Of a stretch of 64,000 nucleotides of DNA, positions 9,255-29,620 are shown piece after piece. The stretch's first letter is position 1; the number at the start of each line of letters is the position of its first letter. Source of the DNA: Dehalococcoidia bacterium. Its GTDB lineage: Bacteria > Chloroflexota > Dehalococcoidia > DSTF01 > JALHUB01. The stretch lies in the NCBI GenBank assembly GCA_030018455.1, contig JASEFU010000001.1:654195-718194 (forward strand), read 5' to 3'. The notes beneath the pieces are model-generated. The model had not been told where the DNA came from. It did not search any database and saw only the letters and a program-made list of their open reading frames with translations. The position numbers were made by a program, and so were the translations under genes.

Positions 9255-10487
9255 ATTAGAGGCACGCTCAGCCCACGCTACCCGGGTCGTAGAAAACGAT
9301 CAGGGACGTGTACCGGAGACCAGGGACAGACCTCTCCCGCCACTGCCGCCTTCTGTGGAAAACACAGGGCAGGCTTCCACTTAACCGTCCTCATCGCAGC
9401 TTTCATCGCCGTACTCTTCACCTCTTTTCTCGCCGGGCGCATCGATCTCGCTAAACACCGCTTTTCTTCCCCCGTTTCGCTTTCTCTGCCGGGAGTGGCG
9501 GCGGCTATCATCCCGCCCGAGCACTCGGTGCTGCGCTCGCCTATGCTGCCGTACACGGAACGGGGCATCCGCGGTGAAGAACCCTTGCCGACAGTGGCGC
9601 CGGTGCCCACCCTGCCGGCGCAGCAAGAAGAGGACATGCTCTTCGCGGCCGCGGCCCCCTTGCCCGCTCCTAAGCCGCCGTTCTTCGTCTACACCGTGCA
9701 GGAAGGAGATTCCGTCGGCGCCCTGGCGTCCCGCTTTGGTCTGGCGCCCGCTTCCATCCTCTGGAACAACCTTGACCTCGAGAACGCCGACGTCCTTACC
9801 GTCGGGCAGCAGCTGCGAATACCCACCAGCGATGGCCTGATCTACGAGGTCAGGCTGGGAGACACCCTGAGCGACATCGCCGAGCGCTTCGGCGTAACTG
9901 TCGACGACATCGTTGCCTTCCCTGCTAACGGGCTGAGCGGGCCGGACGGCATCGTTGAGAACCAGACGCTGTTCGTGCCTAACGGCGTGTTGCCTGCGCC
10001 GGCGGAGACACCGGTCGTGGAAGTCCCGCCGCCCGCTCCCATACTACCGTCGCCGGGGCCGACGAGCCCGCCGGCGAGCCCACCCCCGACGATCCCGCCC
10101 GCGAGAGGGCCGTCGTCCACCGGCTTCATCTGGCCGACCACCGGCAACATATCCAGCTACTTCGGGCCGTCGCACCCCCTGGGCATCGACATCGATATGT
10201 TCGGGCGTGGAGGCGCGCCTATCTACGCCGCCGCGTCGGGCACCGTCACCTTTGCGGGCGGGAACGCCTGCTGCTCCTACGGCCTCTACGTAATAGTGAA
10301 CCACGGGAACGGCTTCGAGACGCTATACGCCCACCTGGGTTCGATCGCCGTGTACCAGGGGCAGTGGGTCGAGCAGGGGCAGATTGTCGGCTACGTCGGC
10401 CTCACCGGCTACACCACCGGTTATCACCTGCACTTCGAGGTCCACCTCAACGGAGTCCACGTTAACCCGCTGAACTACCTCCCTTAG
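9255..10487 (+). CDS. Membrane-anchored LysM and M23 peptidase protein, probable ATT start
   Basis: A cell-wall protein with a membrane anchor ('LTVLIAAFIAVLFTSFLAG'), two LysM peptidoglycan-binding repeats ('YTVQEGDSVGALASRFGL' and 'YEVRLGDTLSDIAERFGV'), a Pro-rich linker and a C-terminal M23 (LytM) peptidase domain with 'HPLGIDIDMF' and 'GYHLHFEVHLNG' metal-ligand motifs. The first GTG in frame (9495) would remove the membrane segment, and the frame from 9255 to 9494 has no ATG, GTG, TTG or CTG. An AGGAGG Shine-Dalgarno lies 8 bases before the in-frame ATT at 9255, giving 410 residues with a basic N-terminus. Lytic activity or activation of an amidase are both possible. Confidence 0.85.
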   Translation: MRGTLSPRYPGRRKRSGTCTGDQGQTSPATAAFCGKHRAGFHLTVLIAAFIAVLFTSFLAGRIDLAKHRFSSPVSLSLPGVAAAIIPPEHSVLRSPMLPYTERGIRGEEPLPTVAPVPTLPAQQEEDMLFAAAAPLPAPKPPFFVYTVQEGDSVGALASRFGLAPASILWNNLDLENADVLTVGQQLRIPTSDGLIYEVRLGDTLSDIAERFGVTVDDIVAFPANGLSGPDGIVENQTLFVPNGVLPAPAETPVVEVPPPAPILPSPGPTSPPASPPPTIPPARGPSSTGFIWPTTGNISSYFGPSHPLGIDIDMFGRGGAPIYAAASGTVTFAGGNACCSYGLYVIVNHGNGFETLYAHLGSIAVYQGQWVEQGQIVGYVGLTGYTTGYHLHFEVHLNGVHVNPLNYLP

Positions 10488-10525
10488 GGGCAGCCCGTCC
10501 GTAGCGTAGTCTCCTGTCGCCTGTG

Positions 10526-11179
10526 CTACTTTGGGGTTTTTCGCGGCGCCGTGTGGTCGAGGAGCACTATCTCCGATTCGGCGGGAAGCGTCGCGTGGGT
10601 AACGGTTAGCCGCGGCTGAAGCTCGGAGGGGGACGCCCCCATCTCGCGCAGGAAACGGTCTACTCCGTCGAGCTTGAGGTCGGAGCCGGGCATCGCGTAG
10701 TGCATGGGCACGATCATCCGCGGCTCGAGGAGGCTCACCGTCTCGGCAGCGGTCGCCGCGTCGAGACCGCCCTGCCCGCCGATGGGGACAAGCAGGAGGT
10801 CGACGTTGCTCATCGTCTCCGCCTGCTCTGCGCTGGGGACCTGCGCCAGCCGTCCCAGGTGGCAGACGCGCATCCCCTCGAGCTCGATGACGTAGGCGGT
10901 GTTCTTGCCGTCCTTGCCGCGTCCCTTAGCGGAGTTCGTCGCGATCCCCGTAATCAGGATGCCCGCGCTCTCGTACTCCCCGGGGCCCCAGATCACGAGC
11001 GGGGAACCGCTGACGCCGCCCACGTAGCTATGATCGGGGTGGGCGCAGCTAACGGTGACGATATCGGCTGCGGGGCGGCCCATCGACAAACCGCCGGTCT
11101 TGGGGAAGGGGTCAGTCAGAATTGCGGCCTCTCTGCCGCGAATACGGAAGCAGGAGAGGCCAAGCCATATGAGTTCCAT
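10526..11179 (-). CDS. MBL-fold metal-dependent hydrolase (UlaG-like)
   Basis: A 217-residue protein of the beta-lactamase-fold L-ascorbate-lactonase/UlaG-like subgroup. It starts 'MELIWLGLSCFRIRG' and carries a metal motif 'SCAHPDHSY', 'GPGEYESAGILITGI', 'HLGRL' and 'MIVPMHYAMPG', which are the usual metal-ligand positions in this compact family. The substrate is unknown. It is transcribed from a -10 box placed 7 bases before the ATG, so the mRNA is probably leaderless. It is convergent with the LysM/M23 gene, 38 bases apart. Confidence 0.8.
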   Translation of the reverse strand: MELIWLGLSCFRIRGREAAILTDPFPKTGGLSMGRPAADIVTVSCAHPDHSYVGGVSGSPLVIWGPGEYESAGILITGIATNSAKGRGKDGKNTAYVIELEGMRVCHLGRLAQVPSAEQAETMSNVDLLLVPIGGQGGLDAATAAETVSLLEPRMIVPMHYAMPGSDLKLDGVDRFLREMGASPSELQPRLTVTHATLPAESEIVLLDHTAPRKTPK

Positions 11180-11186
11180 CGGACGC

Positions 11187-11192
11187 AGTATA
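11187..11192 (-). promoter_or_regulatory. -10 box of the MBL hydrolase gene
   Basis: TATACT on the minus strand, 7 bases before the ATG at 11179. The predicted transcription start coincides with the start codon. The -35 region (CTGCCT at 11215-11210, 17-base spacer) is weak. Confidence 0.5.
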
Positions 11193-11409
11193 GCATCCCT
11201 TTCCTCTTCAGGCAGCCCCTGCGACGGGGGTTGACAGACCCACCGGCACGCTTATTCTTGTCGCGAGAGTTGCGTCGAGTATTACAACTGGACCGGCATA
11301 GACTGGGTAGGGTTCAGCGGCGAGCGGGAAGGCTCTGGGCAGGTCCCTTATGAACACCTTCTCCAGCAAATCAGATAGAGGTGGCGCAATGCCAGCAAGG
11401 AGGCGATTA

Positions 11410-23695: not shown

Positions 23696-25801
23696 TCAGG
23701 CGGCAGCCTTCTCGGCCAGGCGCGCTTCCATGAGGTTGACGAAGGTGTCGACAAGCGCCGGATCAAACTGGGTGCCGGCGTTGGCGCGCAGCTCGGCGAC
23801 GGCGTGCGCATGGCTCTGCGCTTTGCGGAAGGGGCGGTCGGACGTCATCGCGGAATAGGCGTCGACGACCGCCATTATGCGGCCCAGCAAGGGGATCTCT
23901 TCGCCCTTGAGGCCGCGCGGGTAGCCCGTGCCGTCCCAGCGTTCGTGGTGGTTGATGACGGCGTCCGACACGTCGCCGGCATGCGGCACCCCTTTGATGA
24001 TGAGGTCGCTCAGTACCACGTGGCGGCGCACGATCTCCCGTTCGTCCGGCGTGAGAGGCCCGGGCTTCTTGAGGATGTGGTCGGGGATGCCTATCTTGCC
24101 GATGTCGTGGAGAAGGCCGGCGATGCGCAGAGCGCTTTGCGTGTCCTCTGACAGTCCCAGCGCCTTGCCGAGCATCATCGCGTACTCCGCGTTCTCCTCG
24201 CTGTGCGACTTCGTGTAGCGGTCCTTCTTATCGACCGCCTGCACGAGGCCGTCGAGCACGCCGAGGGTCGTGTTCTGGTAGGCGTAGAGCTCGCCGGGGT
24301 TGCGGTTGGCGAGAGTTATGGCGTCGCCGCCCGCGCGCTTGGACTCGAACAGGGAAGCGTCGACGTAGGCGAGAAGCTCCTCTTTGTTCGCGCTGTCCTG
24401 GGGGAAGACGGCTATTCCCATGCTGACGCGGAGGGGGAGGCGCTGGCCGCCGTCGAAATAAATGCCCTGGTCTATCAACCGCCGGCGTATGCGCTTCGCC
24501 ACCAGCATCGCTTTTCGCCGGTTGCTGCCGGGGGCGATGATCATGAACTTGTCGCCGCCGTGCCTTCCGACGATCATCTCGCCTCTCACCAGCGAGATGA
24601 GGATGTCCGCTACCAGCTTCAGCACTTTATCGCCGGCCGCATGCCCATAAGTGGAGTTGAACAGCTTGAAGTCATCGATGTCTATGAGAATGACCGCGAG
24701 CGGCTCGTTGCGCTTCCTGGCCCGCTCCATCTCCCTGGACAGCCTCTCCTGAAGATAGCGATGGTTGCAGAGGCCGGTCGGGGCATCGGTATTCGCCAGA
24801 TTGGAGAGTTCCTGATAGCTCTGGTAGAGGGCGAGGCTCATCTGGTTGAAGCTTCGCTTCAGCGCCCGGATCTCCTCGACCCCCTTCACCGGGATGGTCT
24901 GTCCGTACGCTCCCTTGCTTATTCTCTGCGCATGCAGGACGAGTCCGTGTATGGGCCTGGTGACGCTCCTGGCCGCGAAAATGACAACCAACGAGAACAG
25001 GAAACCTCCCAGCCACACGAGCCCGATGACCGTCATCGCCGTAGTGCGGATGCGGGTCGTGATGTCGTCGGTAGGTATGGAAACGGTAAGGGAAGCTGCG
25101 CCGGGCGGGCCGATAGGCAGATCGGTGGTCAGAATGCCGTAAGAGCCGTTTATGACGGCTTCCCCGGCGGGCGGGGGAGCCCCGGCGTCCGGCGCCGTCG
25201 CAGCCGTCGAGCCGACGGAAACTTCGCCTGCCGTCAGCGTCAATTCGGCGCCCAGGACGCCGGCGATGGTGTCGAGCATGTCCCGGTCGAGTTGCTTGCC
25301 TGCCAGCACGAGGGAGGTTGGGGGAGAGTTTTCCCGTTCGACAGGCGCGAGGCCGATAAGCCAGAGTGAGCCGTCGAACGCCGTGATAGTGGAGAAGACC
25401 GGGGTTCTCTGCGCCCTCTTAAGTTCGGCCGCCGTTACGAGCGGGAGAGGCCCCACCCCCGCGACCGACATCCCGTCGCGCGTAATCAGTTGAAGGGCGT
25501 CGACGTTGCCGACGGTCATGGCGGGAATGAAGTAGCCGTCGACGGGGGAGGTATCGCCGCCGGCGCCCGCCGCCTGGACCTCCGACGTGTTCGCGAGCGA
25601 GCTCGCGAGGCCCATTAGATCGCGCTGTTGCTGCGTCAGCAGCAGCTCAATGGCCGCGCTCCTTCTCTTGAGCTGATCGCGGACCATCTCATGCGCGTTG
25701 TGACTCGATAGTCGCAACCCGACGAACGTGCTGGCGATGGTCAGCAGCACGAAGACGGCGGCCAGCGGCAACAGGAGCTGCTTATCCAGTGTCCATTTCA
25801 T
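23696..25801 (-). CDS. Membrane sensor with degenerate GGDEF and HD-GYP domains
   Basis: A 701-residue protein. TM1 is at about 10-29, an extracellular sensor at 30-250, TM2 at 256-277, HAMP at about 280-330, GGDEF at 335-495 and HD-GYP at 510-695. The diguanylate cyclase signature reads GGDKF (415-419) instead of GG(D/E)EF, and the metal/GTP motif has 'FNSTYGH' in place of 'xNDxYGH', so cyclase activity is doubtful. The HD-GYP domain keeps His565-Asp566 in 'LLHDIGKIGIPD' and the GYP loop at 626-628 in 'RWDGTGYPRG', so c-di-GMP hydrolysis is likely. The GGDEF part may sense GTP. It may be co-transcribed with the GH172 gene. Confidence 0.93.
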   Translation of the reverse strand: MKWTLDKQLLLPLAAVFVLLTIASTFVGLRLSSHNAHEMVRDQLKRRSAAIELLLTQQQRDLMGLASSLANTSEVQAAGAGGDTSPVDGYFIPAMTVGNVDALQLITRDGMSVAGVGPLPLVTAAELKRAQRTPVFSTITAFDGSLWLIGLAPVERENSPPTSLVLAGKQLDRDMLDTIAGVLGAELTLTAGEVSVGSTAATAPDAGAPPPAGEAVINGSYGILTTDLPIGPPGAASLTVSIPTDDITTRIRTTAMTVIGLVWLGGFLFSLVVIFAARSVTRPIHGLVLHAQRISKGAYGQTIPVKGVEEIRALKRSFNQMSLALYQSYQELSNLANTDAPTGLCNHRYLQERLSREMERARKRNEPLAVILIDIDDFKLFNSTYGHAAGDKVLKLVADILISLVRGEMIVGRHGGDKFMIIAPGSNRRKAMLVAKRIRRRLIDQGIYFDGGQRLPLRVSMGIAVFPQDSANKEELLAYVDASLFESKRAGGDAITLANRNPGELYAYQNTTLGVLDGLVQAVDKKDRYTKSHSEENAEYAMMLGKALGLSEDTQSALRIAGLLHDIGKIGIPDHILKKPGPLTPDEREIVRRHVVLSDLIIKGVPHAGDVSDAVINHHERWDGTGYPRGLKGEEIPLLGRIMAVVDAYSAMTSDRPFRKAQSHAHAVAELRANAGTQFDPALVDTFVNLMEARLAEKAAA

Positions 25802-25970
25802 TTGTAAAGCTCAAGTGGTCACCTGAGCATAATCGGATACAGATTGCGTCTTCTGCACACGGCGCTTACCGTAATCGCTTCAGGCCGTGGCGTTTTCGGC
25901 GCTCTTTGTCCTTTCGTCGCTATCTGCTATCGTAGAGCCGCCTCGTGGCAACGGGGCCGAAAGAGGGGAA

Positions 25971-26858
25971 ATGAGCGCTCTGACTGTTATCGATGCTCAC
26001 GTCCATACTTATCCGTCGCCGCAAATAGGGCTGCAGGCCACGGGCGGGATGAATTTCAGCGGCTGCGCAGGCACGGTGCAGGAACTCCTGGCCCTTATGG
26101 CGGTGGGCGGCATCGATAAGGCGGTGATGGTCAACATGACGCCTGTGGCGGACATGAGAGAGGCCGCCCTCGCCTCCGGGAAGGGACCGTACGAGGAGGT
26201 GGCGCGCCAGATGGTCGAGAGGATGAAGCGGCGCAACGCCTGGACGTGTCAGGTGGGCCGCGATCATCCCAGCCTCGTGCCGTTTATCAGCCTCGACCCA
26301 TCGATGGGGCCGGACGAGGCCGCTGCGGAAGTGCGCACGCGGGCGAGCGAAGGGGCGCGGGGTATCAAACTTCATCCCTCTGCGCAGCGCTTCAATCCCG
26401 ACGACCGCAACCTGTGGCCTGCCTACGAGGAGGCGCAGTCGCTGGGGCTGCCGGTGATCTCGCACGGCGGCCTGTTCCTCGGCGACCCCGAGACGTCGGA
26501 CCACTCGCGGCCGCGGGCGTTCGAGCGGGTGCTGGCGGCGTTTCCGCGCCTCACGCTCGTCGTCGCCCACCTCGGCCAGGGCTACGTCGAAGAGTCGATC
26601 GCGATGGCGGAAAAGCACGCGAACCTCTTTTTCGACTGCTCCGCAGCCGTCAACGGCACGGTGGAGCCGCAATCGATGTCGGACGAGGAGGCGGCGGACG
26701 TAATCAGGCGGATCGGTGTTGACCGTGTGCTCTTTGGCTCGGACTGGCCGTGGTTCCACCCGCTTCGGGATGCGGAGCGCATCGAGTCGCTGCCGCTTTC
26801 CGATGCGGAAAAGAGCCTGGTCCTGGGAGGGAACGCCCGCCGCGTTCTCGGCCTGTAG
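25971..26858 (+). CDS. Amidohydrolase family protein
   Basis: A 295-residue TIM-barrel metallo-hydrolase of the amidohydrolase-2 (ACMSD-like) type. Metal ligands are visible in 'DAHVHTYP' (HxH after strand 1), 'PVISHGGLFLG' and 'FGSDWPWFHP' near the C-terminus. Members hydrolyse or decarboxylate small organic acids; the substrate is unknown. The ATG at 25971 follows GAGGGG and begins the domain at once, although the frame is open from 25887. It is the first gene of a tight operon with the selenoprotein candidate 15 bases downstream. Confidence 0.88.
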   Translation: MSALTVIDAHVHTYPSPQIGLQATGGMNFSGCAGTVQELLALMAVGGIDKAVMVNMTPVADMREAALASGKGPYEEVARQMVERMKRRNAWTCQVGRDHPSLVPFISLDPSMGPDEAAAEVRTRASEGARGIKLHPSAQRFNPDDRNLWPAYEEAQSLGLPVISHGGLFLGDPETSDHSRPRAFERVLAAFPRLTLVVAHLGQGYVEESIAMAEKHANLFFDCSAAVNGTVEPQSMSDEEAADVIRRIGVDRVLFGSDWPWFHPLRDAERIESLPLSDAEKSLVLGGNARRVLGL

Positions 26859-26873
26859 CTGGAACGGCAAGGC

Positions 26874-27755
26874 ATGGTCGATAGCTTCAAGTGGCTGCCG
26901 CCGTCGATGGCCGCGTACTACCGGGCGCGGCCGATCGAGAAGCAAGAGGTGCCCTGGGCCCCTCTGAAGAAGCCCTTGAATCAGTGCCGCTTCTCAGTCG
27001 TCACTACTGGAGGCGTGTACGTGAAGGGAAAGCAACCGCCGTTCGATGTCGAAAGGGAGCGGCGGGAGCCCTTCTGGGGGGACCCGACGTATCGGGTCAT
27101 CCCCAGGGACGTGCGGCAGGAGGAGATCGGCGTCGCGCATCTTCACATAAACACCAGCGACATCGAGGAGGACGTGAACATCGTCCTCCCCATCCACCGT
27201 TTCCTGGAGCTGGAAGAGGCGGGGGAAATCGGCTCGCTGGCGCCCAGCAGCTACTCGCTGATGGGGTTCCAGTGGAACCAGGACGAGTGGCGCGACCGCT
27301 ACGGCCCCGAGATCGCGGCCCGCATGAAAGAGGAGGCGGTGGACGCGGCGCTCATCACGCCCGTCTGACCGGACTGCTGCCGGAACGCGCCCGTGCTGGC
27401 GCGCGCAATCGAGGCGGCAGGGATCAGCACGGTCCTCTTGACGATGATGCCCTTTCTCGCCGAAGCTTCCGGAACTCCGCGCATCGTCGGGATCGAGTTC
27501 CCGTTCGGACATACCGTGGGTCACGCGCATGACCGCGACGAGCAGCTTGCCGTAATTCGCGGCGCTTTGCAGGCGCTCGAGGAAGCGCAGCAACCGAACA
27601 ACGTCGTTGAGCTGCCGTTCGAGTGGCCGGACTTCGAACACTGGAAGAGGGCGTGGCATCCGCCGGAGCCCGCGCCGGTGATAGCGTTCCTGCGGGAGCA
27701 GGCGAGGCGCCAGGCGGAAGCGCGGCGCGCAGGCAAAGACAACTCGAATCAATGA
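26874..27755 (+). CDS. GrdB-like reductase family protein, predicted selenoprotein (in-frame TGA at 27366)
   Basis: Two open frames in the same phase are separated only by TGA (27366-27368). Read through as selenocysteine they give one 293-residue protein similar to the selenoprotein B subunit of glycine/sarcosine/betaine and D-proline reductases. The TGA is residue 165 in 'ALITPV-U-PDCCRN', a UxxC redox motif at the place where GrdB has U-G-T-C. The C-terminal half 'RIVGIEFPFGHTVGHAHD' also fits the family. A SECIS-like hairpin follows 17 bases after the TGA. The frame that ends at 27755 overlaps the next start codon (ATGA), as expected for an intact operon. The protein is too short for the classical glycine reductase subunit, so it is a homologue of unknown substrate. 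The alternative is a nonsense-mutated gene; no Sec machinery lies in the window. Confidence 0.8.
27366..27403 (+). promoter_or_regulatory. Predicted bacterial SECIS element
   Basis: TGA (27366-27368), then a hairpin with a perfect 6-bp stem CGCGCC (27386-27391)/GGCGCG (27398-27403) and a 6-base loop CGTGCT. The loop starts 23 bases after the TGA, and its second base is G. Both fit the loose bSECIS rules (short distance, G among the first two loop bases), which would recruit SelB. Confidence 0.65.
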
Positions 27756-28654
27756 TACCTCCGGAGCTTCCGGCCGCTGTCCGCGCTCTCTACCCGTTTA
27801 GGAGCAACTACAAACGGGTGAACGGACGCTGGATGCATTACCTCGACGAGGGCGCCGGCGAGCCGATAGTGCTGCTTCATGGCAACCCCACGTGGTCGCT
27901 CCTCTACCGTAACTTCATCCCGCCGCTGGCGGAGCGCTATCGCGTTGTCGCGCCCGACTACGTGGGCTTCGGCCTTTCTGAGAAGCCGGCCGACGAGTCG
28001 GCGTACAGCCTGCGGAACCACACGGCGATCCTAACGTCGCTTCTGGACGGACTGGGGCTGCGGAACGTGACGCTGGTGATGCAGGACTGGGGCGGCCCAA
28101 TTGGGCTCGGCTATGCGCTGGCCCGACGCTCTAATGTCCGCACGCTGGTGATCATGAACACGTGGGCGTTCACCGACGCTTCCCGCTTTCACCGCTCGGT
28201 CTACCCGTGGCGGCTGCTGCACGCGCCCATCTTCGGGCAGTTGCTCTTGAAGCGTCGGAACTTGATGGTGGAGGCCAACCTGGCGATGGGCGTCTTCCAC
28301 AGTGAACGCATTTCGGGAGCCGTGCTGGAAACATACCGCTTCCCGTTTCCCGATTACGACTCCCGCACGGGCATCCTCGCGTTCCCGCGCTCAATACCGC
28401 TGCAGCCCGGCGACGCTGCCTATGAGGTGATGGCCCGGATATCGCGGGGTCTCGGCGACCTGGACGTGCCGGCGAAGATCATCTGGGGAGAGCAGGACAT
28501 CGTCTTCCCCGTGGAGTTAGCGTACAGGTTCCAGGCGGCGTTGCCGCAGGCGGACGAGCCCTACGTTATCCACGAGGCGCGGCATTTTCTTCAGGAGGAC
28601 GCGCCGGAGGAGATAACGGAGCAGATAATGGCGTTCCCGGCATCGATTTCGTAG
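27752..28654 (+). CDS. Haloalkane-dehalogenase-like alpha/beta hydrolase
   Basis: A 300-residue alpha/beta-fold hydrolase with the haloalkane dehalogenase pattern: oxyanion 'HGNPTWS' (43-49, Asn45 a possible halide ligand), nucleophile Asp112 followed by Trp113 in 'VMQDWGGPIG' (second halide ligand), an acid in 'WGEQDIVFP' and catalytic His278 in 'EARHFLQED'. An Asp nucleophile next to Trp is typical for hydrolytic carbon-halogen cleavage rather than for esterases. The ATG at 27752 overlaps the stop of the selenoprotein gene by 4 bases. The physiological substrate is unknown. Confidence 0.85.
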   Translation: MIPPELPAAVRALYPFRSNYKRVNGRWMHYLDEGAGEPIVLLHGNPTWSLLYRNFIPPLAERYRVVAPDYVGFGLSEKPADESAYSLRNHTAILTSLLDGLGLRNVTLVMQDWGGPIGLGYALARRSNVRTLVIMNTWAFTDASRFHRSVYPWRLLHAPIFGQLLLKRRNLMVEANLAMGVFHSERISGAVLETYRFPFPDYDSRTGILAFPRSIPLQPGDAAYEVMARISRGLGDLDVPAKIIWGEQDIVFPVELAYRFQAALPQADEPYVIHEARHFLQEDAPEEITEQIMAFPASIS

Positions 28655-28663
28655 GAGCAGACG

Positions 28664-29068
28664 ATGGAGTTTCTAGACGCGCCGGATGTGGCGCTGGAGC
28701 AGTACCGCAGGGAGCTGGTGCTGCGGGAGCCGAGTTTGCGCCACTACGAGGAGTTCGGCGAGTTCATGCGCCGTCATTTCCGGCTCACGCCGGCGGATGT
28801 CGCTGCCAGACGCAGGGTCTATTTCCGATCAGACGGGGGGCGTCTGTACGAGATCGCGTTTCTCGGCGGCACGGGGGGCGCTTTTCCGAGCGGCCTCGAG
28901 ATCTTCCTCCTGATGCCAGAACTGGAAGCGACGCCGGAGCAGGACGACATCGACGCCGATATCTGGTTTTTCCTCCGGCGCGTCGTCGAGGGGGTAGGCG
29001 GCGAGTGGACGCTGGAGCGGTTCAACCGGATGGTGGGACTGTACGGGCTGCCGTTCACGCCACCCTGA
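28664..29068 (+). CDS. Hypothetical protein in the dehalogenase operon
   Basis: A 134-residue protein of no recognised family. It is predicted to be helical at the start ('ALEQYRRELVLREPSLRHYEEF'), with a central beta-rich part ('RLYEIAFLGGTGG', 'GLEIFLLMPELEA') and a helical end. There is no signal peptide and no cysteine. AGGAG lies 6 bases before the ATG. It starts 9 bases after the hydrolase and 36 bases before the nitroreductase, so co-transcription is very likely. Confidence 0.75.
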   Translation: MEFLDAPDVALEQYRRELVLREPSLRHYEEFGEFMRRHFRLTPADVAARRRVYFRSDGGRLYEIAFLGGTGGAFPSGLEIFLLMPELEATPEQDDIDADIWFFLRRVVEGVGGEWTLERFNRMVGLYGLPFTPP

Positions 29069-29104: not shown

Positions 29105-29620
29105 ATGGAATTCGCAAAGCTGATCGATGAGAGACGCTCGGTGCGCGCCTATCAGCAGAGGGAGGTGGAAGACGACAAGCTGCGGCTGGTGCTCCACGCC
29201 GCGAACCGCGCGCCCTCCGCCGGAGACCTGCAAGCGTACGGCATAGTCGTTGTGCGGGACGGGCAGGCGAAGCGCGCGCTCGCCGGCGCCGCCTACGACC
29301 AGCTTTTCGTGAGCGAGGCGCCGATCGTGCTCGTGTTCCTCGCCCGGCCGTCGCTTTCGGCGGTGAAGTACGGCTCGCGGGGGAGGGCGCTGTACTGCGT
29401 TCAGGACGCGACGATCGCCTGCGCCTACGCGCAGCTCGCAGCGCACGATCTGGGACTGGGCGCGTGCTGGGTGGGCGCCTTCCGCGACGAGGCCGTTTGC
29501 GAGATTGTGGGGTGCTCCTCGGACGAGCTGCCGGTGGCGCTGCTTCCGCTCGGCTATCCGGCGGAGAGGCCGGAACCGACGCCTAGGCGGCGGCTGGAGG
29601 AGCTGGCGCGAAGCATGTGA
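29105..29620 (+). CDS. Nitroreductase family protein
   Basis: A 171-residue FMN-dependent oxidoreductase of the nitroreductase fold. 'IDERRSVRAYQQREVEDDKL' holds the Arg/Ser FMN phosphate contacts, 'APSAGDLQAYGIVVV' the next FMN loop, and 'LGACWVGAFRDEAVCEIVG' plus 'LLPLGYPAE' complete the typical C-terminal pattern. Members reduce nitro, quinone or flavin substrates with NAD(P)H, and one branch removes iodine from tyrosines. The function in this operon is unknown. A GGAGGAG Shine-Dalgarno precedes the ATG. Confidence 0.88.
   Translation: MEFAKLIDERRSVRAYQQREVEDDKLRLVLHAANRAPSAGDLQAYGIVVVRDGQAKRALAGAAYDQLFVSEAPIVLVFLARPSLSAVKYGSRGRALYCVQDATIACAYAQLAAHDLGLGACWVGAFRDEAVCEIVGCSSDELPVALLPLGYPAERPEPTPRRRLEELARSM

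Follow-up and report, generated by a model that had tools for sequence, protein, structure and literature searches.

A Dehalococcoidia gene with an in-frame UGA very probably encodes a selenoprotein of the PrdB/GrdB superfamily

We identified, within a window of 64,000 nucleotides (the whole stretch of DNA that was analysed), a gene at 26874-27755 that is very probably a selenoprotein gene, its internal 'stop' being read as selenocysteine (Sec). On the sequence evidence laid out below, we consider it highly likely that three things hold together: the product is a selenoprotein, it belongs to the PrdB/GrdB superfamily, and the canonical pyruvoyl partner of such proteins is absent. Translation of the region with TGA as Sec gives a single frame of 293 residues, made up of 164 codons, the TGA and a further 128 sense codons, and U165 stands in the context ITPV-U-PDCC, a UxxC redox motif. 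The first-pass annotation had described one TGA at 27366 uniting two same-frame ORFs and had noted the U-P-D-C motif, and the translation bears out both observations. It had also warned that annotation pipelines would split the gene; a standard gene caller would indeed return exactly those two ORFs, and the reading given here restores as one gene what would otherwise be broken in two. The features concerned are as follows.

26874..27755, + strand: predicted selenoprotein gene, PrdB/GrdB superfamily, 293 aa with Sec165
27366..27368, + strand: in-frame TGA (UGA), predicted Sec codon, motif U-P-D-C; TGA conserved in relatives
27386..27403, + strand: predicted bacterial SECIS hairpin, 6-bp stem (27386-27391/27398-27403) and 6-nt loop (27392-27397)

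Family placement and the pyruvoyl partner

The protein is a member of Pfam family PF07355 (GRDB), scoring 42.5 bits against a gathering cut-off of 22. Among NCBIfam models PrdB fits best (TIGR04483; E 2.3e-54), yet the score of 184.4 bits falls short of its equivalog cut-off of 300, and the GrdB models are far weaker (E 2e-11; TIGR01917, 43 bits against a cut-off of 602). The earlier label 'GrdB-like' thus stands at the level of the superfamily, PF07355 being above its cut-off, but the nearest model is PrdB and not GrdB; the more fitting label would be PrdB/GrdB superfamily, nearest to PrdB. In an AlphaFold model of the full chain (pLDDT 94.8, pTM 0.91), the part after residue 165 is placed within the same alpha/beta fold as the rest. 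A search of solved structures found no clear relative. Weak phosphotriesterase matches covering a portion of the chain (E 6e-4), and middling fold matches of which microcystinase C was the best (Z 8.1), were set aside as regards function.

In L138, another genome of the same class, two GrdB-type genes adjoin GrdE-type genes, and their Sec codon lines up with U165, in agreement with the earlier claim that the TGA occupies the Sec position of GrdB. These two Sec genes (L138:8263-9576 and 9422-11257, minus strand) carry the motif UGTGTRC, and canonical glycine/betaine-type reductases exist in the same class.

D-proline and glycine reductases employ a pyruvoyl subunit, PrdA/GrdE. The present protein might be a subunit of a reductase of either type, its pyruvoyl partner being encoded elsewhere or too diverged to detect, an explanation favoured by PrdB as the best curated match and by the Sec position shared with GrdB. 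We nevertheless regard it as improbable: the PrdB score remains at 184 bits against 300, the electron-transfer protein PrdC appears in the source genome only below cut-off, and PF09338 (PrdA/GrdE) was not found in that genome, which is 97.7% complete. The same search found PF09338 in 12 of 294 relatives and in none of the 30 genomes with the closest homologues. Because the domain was not found here and occurs in other relatives but not in those with the closest homologues, a canonical Stickland reductase is unlikely. That a PrdA/GrdE gene was missed in an unassembled part of the draft is possible, though unlikely.

Decoding of the internal UGA

Homologues were found by protein search in 103 of the 294 relatives, and nearly all of them carry one internal TGA. 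The codon aligned to 27366-27368 is TGA in all 30 closest genes and never TAA, TAG or a Cys codon, which settles in favour of Sec the earlier question of whether relatives have U or C at residue 165. Additionally, an alignment-based scan of named genomes, using an alignment of 23 of the 30 closest genes, gave 77 loci; 74 were inspected in detail (three short fragments were omitted), of which one ends before the site and the other 73 cover it, all with TGA. The Cys form was not seen in the named-genome scan, though one of two patterns had Cys at the site; a single-sequence scan of the named genomes' contigs gave no matches. Because TGA is present in 30/30 closest genes and 73/73 scan matches, two sets that overlap strongly and contain the same assemblies, its occurrence here is not due to chance. 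The scan matches come chiefly from Chloroflexota (Dehalococcoidia, Anaerolineae), together with Deltaproteobacteria/Desulfobacterota, and single matching contigs are labelled, by MAG labels as given, Nitrospinota, Acidobacteria, Acidimicrobiia, Myxococcales and Methanothrix. Purifying selection persists 3' of the TGA, with pN/pS about equal before (0.12-0.44) and after it (0.15-0.41) in 11 pairs.

The hairpin downstream of the UGA reads CGCGCC-CGUGCU-GGCGCG in the mRNA (27386-27403), with a 23-nt spacer from the UGA to the start of the loop. Published limits for bSECIS elements are a loop of 3-9 nt, a stem of 4-16 bp, a G at the first or second position of the loop, a distance of 16-37 nt from the UGA and an MFE <= -7.5 (PMC13188914), and the hairpin lies within all of them (the 6-nt loop CGUGCU has its G at position 2, the stem is 6 bp long, the distance is 23 nt and the energy -11.8 kcal/mol). 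Across 28 distinct relatives the pairing is kept in 96.4% of cells, compared with 16-59% for slid controls. Compensatory changes occur in the same relatives at pair 1 (C-G to U-A, four sequences) and pair 3 (U-A to C-G, six sequences), counts that come from related sequences and not from independent events, and none of 500 shuffles had as many double-changed cells or as high a covariation score. Furthermore, the folding energies of 71 sequences sum to -717 kcal/mol, whereas recoding the same peptides with synonymous codons gives -446 +/- 22 kcal/mol (0/200 as low). For single sequences, the hairpin energy was not significant against dinucleotide shuffles, so that covariation and the synonymous-recoding null were used instead and the case for a SECIS element rests on conservation. 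Codon constancy around the UGA reached only modest significance in a rank test (p = 0.03), although the hairpin's Pro, Val and Leu codons are nearly fixed. An Rfam search returned nothing useful.

The more distant homologues (L107, L112, L113, L117-L121, L123, L124, L126, L128, L130 and L131), mostly deltaproteobacterial, have U-P-L/F/Y/I-C in place of U-P-D-C. Many such distant, mainly deltaproteobacterial members have another short hairpin, of the CAGUCC-GUG-GGACUG type, in the same stretch 3' of the UGA.

The source genome, 2.38 Mb in size and 97.7% complete, has its nearest relatives in the Dehalococcoidia (Chloroflexota) and contains selA, selB, selC and selD, the four genes for which the first-pass annotation had proposed a search. 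Of the grounds for refutation named in that annotation, none of those checked applied. Its tRNA-Sec scores 74.7 bits, and ARAGORN concurs. Among relatives, 28 of 30 genomes that carry the selenoprotein gene have a detected tRNA-Sec, compared with 4 of 14 that lack the gene (Fisher p = 2e-5, relatedness ignored); the two gene-bearing genomes without tRNA-Sec are 76% and 84% complete. The selD gene of the source genome (L016:1501-2436, contig 7) has an in-frame TGA of its own, in the context SCAG-U-AGK, and selenophosphate synthetase is likely a second selenoprotein of this genome. A haem-copper oxidase above cut-off was not found in the source genome, which is compatible with an anaerobe but no proof of one.

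If the TGA were a true stop, the locus would be either a pseudogene or two separate proteins, one of 164 aa and one of 120 aa re-initiated at the GTG at 27393, precisely the pair that a standard gene caller would report. This is very improbable, given that the same TGA recurs in MAGs bearing the labels of several phyla and is never TAA or TAG, and given the purifying selection on either side of it, the conserved hairpin and the complete Sec machinery. A sequencing error at 27366 for TGC or TGT (Cys), for which no evidence was found, is more improbable still, as TGA is found in all independently assembled relatives, which rules out an error for the family. Under selenocysteine decoding, SelB carrying Sec-tRNA(Sec) would bind the hairpin right after the UGA and Sec would be inserted at residue 165, and read-through is predicted to give a single folded protein of 293 residues in the PrdB/GrdB superfamily.

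Gene neighbourhood and a proposed reaction

The selenoprotein gene is surrounded by the following genes on the same strand.

25974..26858, + strand: Amidohydrolase_2 family protein (PF04909), upstream; start from the L061 alignment, the longer ORF beginning at 25887
27752..28654, + strand: haloalkane-dehalogenase-like alpha/beta hydrolase; overlaps the selenoprotein gene by ATGA, place not conserved
28664..29068, + strand: 134-aa protein, no Pfam or NCBIfam match
29105..29620, + strand: nitroreductase-family flavoprotein (PF00881); its L061 homologue lies directly 3' of the selenoprotein gene

Next to the cluster, on the opposite strand (23696-25801, minus), lies the gene of a membrane-type signalling protein with GGDEF, HD and HAMP domains. 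In L061, a same-family relative, the order is amidohydrolase (70% identical), selenoprotein, nitroreductase (67%), and neither the dehalogenase-like hydrolase nor the 134-aa ORF was found at the selenoprotein locus. The segment 27752-29068, which holds the hydrolase and the 134-aa orphan ORF between the selenoprotein and nitroreductase genes, reflects either an insertion in the present lineage or a loss in L061. The first-pass annotation had taken the dehalogenase-like neighbour as meaningful and had read the ATGA overlap, in which the ATG of the next gene lies at 27752, as a sign of an operon tuned to the read-through product. Neither suggestion is supported: since the hydrolase is not beside the gene even in L061, where the nitroreductase follows, the overlap is a local arrangement. 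A conserved operon was likewise rejected for the wider set of relatives, in which 55 same-strand neighbours belong to mixed Pfam families (the commonest being GH1 in six and 2-hydroxyacid dehydrogenase in five), which indicates no shared pathway.

By homology to PrdB and GrdB, the U165 selenol may act on a small molecule by attacking a bond of the carbon-heteroatom or disulfide type, after which Cys168 would resolve the selenyl-sulfide and a cellular thiol or flavin system would re-reduce the enzyme. Because no pyruvoyl partner was detected, the substrate is probably not a Schiff-base-activated amine as in D-proline or glycine reductase. More likely, the protein works alone as a reductase on a substrate that is electrophilic to begin with, a proposal to which we attach about even confidence. 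In similarly balanced terms, there may be a separate clade of ~290-residue, apparently Sec-only, stand-alone PrdB-like enzymes, mainly from Chloroflexota and Desulfobacterota, that carry out selenol-based reduction without a pyruvoyl subunit.

Relation to known systems

GrdB, the selenoprotein B of betaine and sarcosine reductase (PF07355), has Sec at the same aligned position and a homologous C-terminal domain. In contrast to the present protein, GrdB is ~430 aa long and occurs with GrdE, and the L138 GrdB has UGTGTRC where UPDCC is found here. FarB, a relative of GrdB, has been proposed to act in monofluoroacetate reduction, with cleavage of a C-F bond (PMC10838667, which also cites the pyruvoyl subunit of D-proline and glycine reductases). 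By analogy, such proteins are thought to accept other substrates, although this does not make the present protein a dehalogenase.

The likeness to PrdB (TIGR04483) extends across residues 23-251 and includes the UxxC motif with Sec. The 293-aa protein differs in scoring below the equivalog cut-off (184 vs 300 bits) and in its greater length, which comes with additional parts at both the N- and the C-terminus; here PrdA was not detected and PrdC appears only below cut-off. UxxC PrdB-like selenoproteins often occur without PrdA/GrdE, and 'proline reductase' is probably a wrong name for them.

Such proteins are well represented in environmental bacteria. PrdB-type UxxC proteins rank third in abundance among the known selenoprotein families of the Sargasso Sea, with 42 genes (PMC1088965), number 235 in the GOS metagenomes (PMC2398784), and are among the most abundant selenoproteins in ocean metagenomes (PMC1088965, PMC2398784). 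The first-pass annotation had considered a short stand-alone member outside the Clostridia unusual, a view at odds with this abundance and with the homologues in 103 of 294 relatives. The Sargasso Sea and GOS proteins, filed as PrdB, resemble the present one by description, as UxxC selenoproteins of environmental bacteria (PMC1088965, PMC2398784). The family to which the gene belongs, bacterial selenoproteins related to the proline and glycine reductases, is widespread and has been described before.
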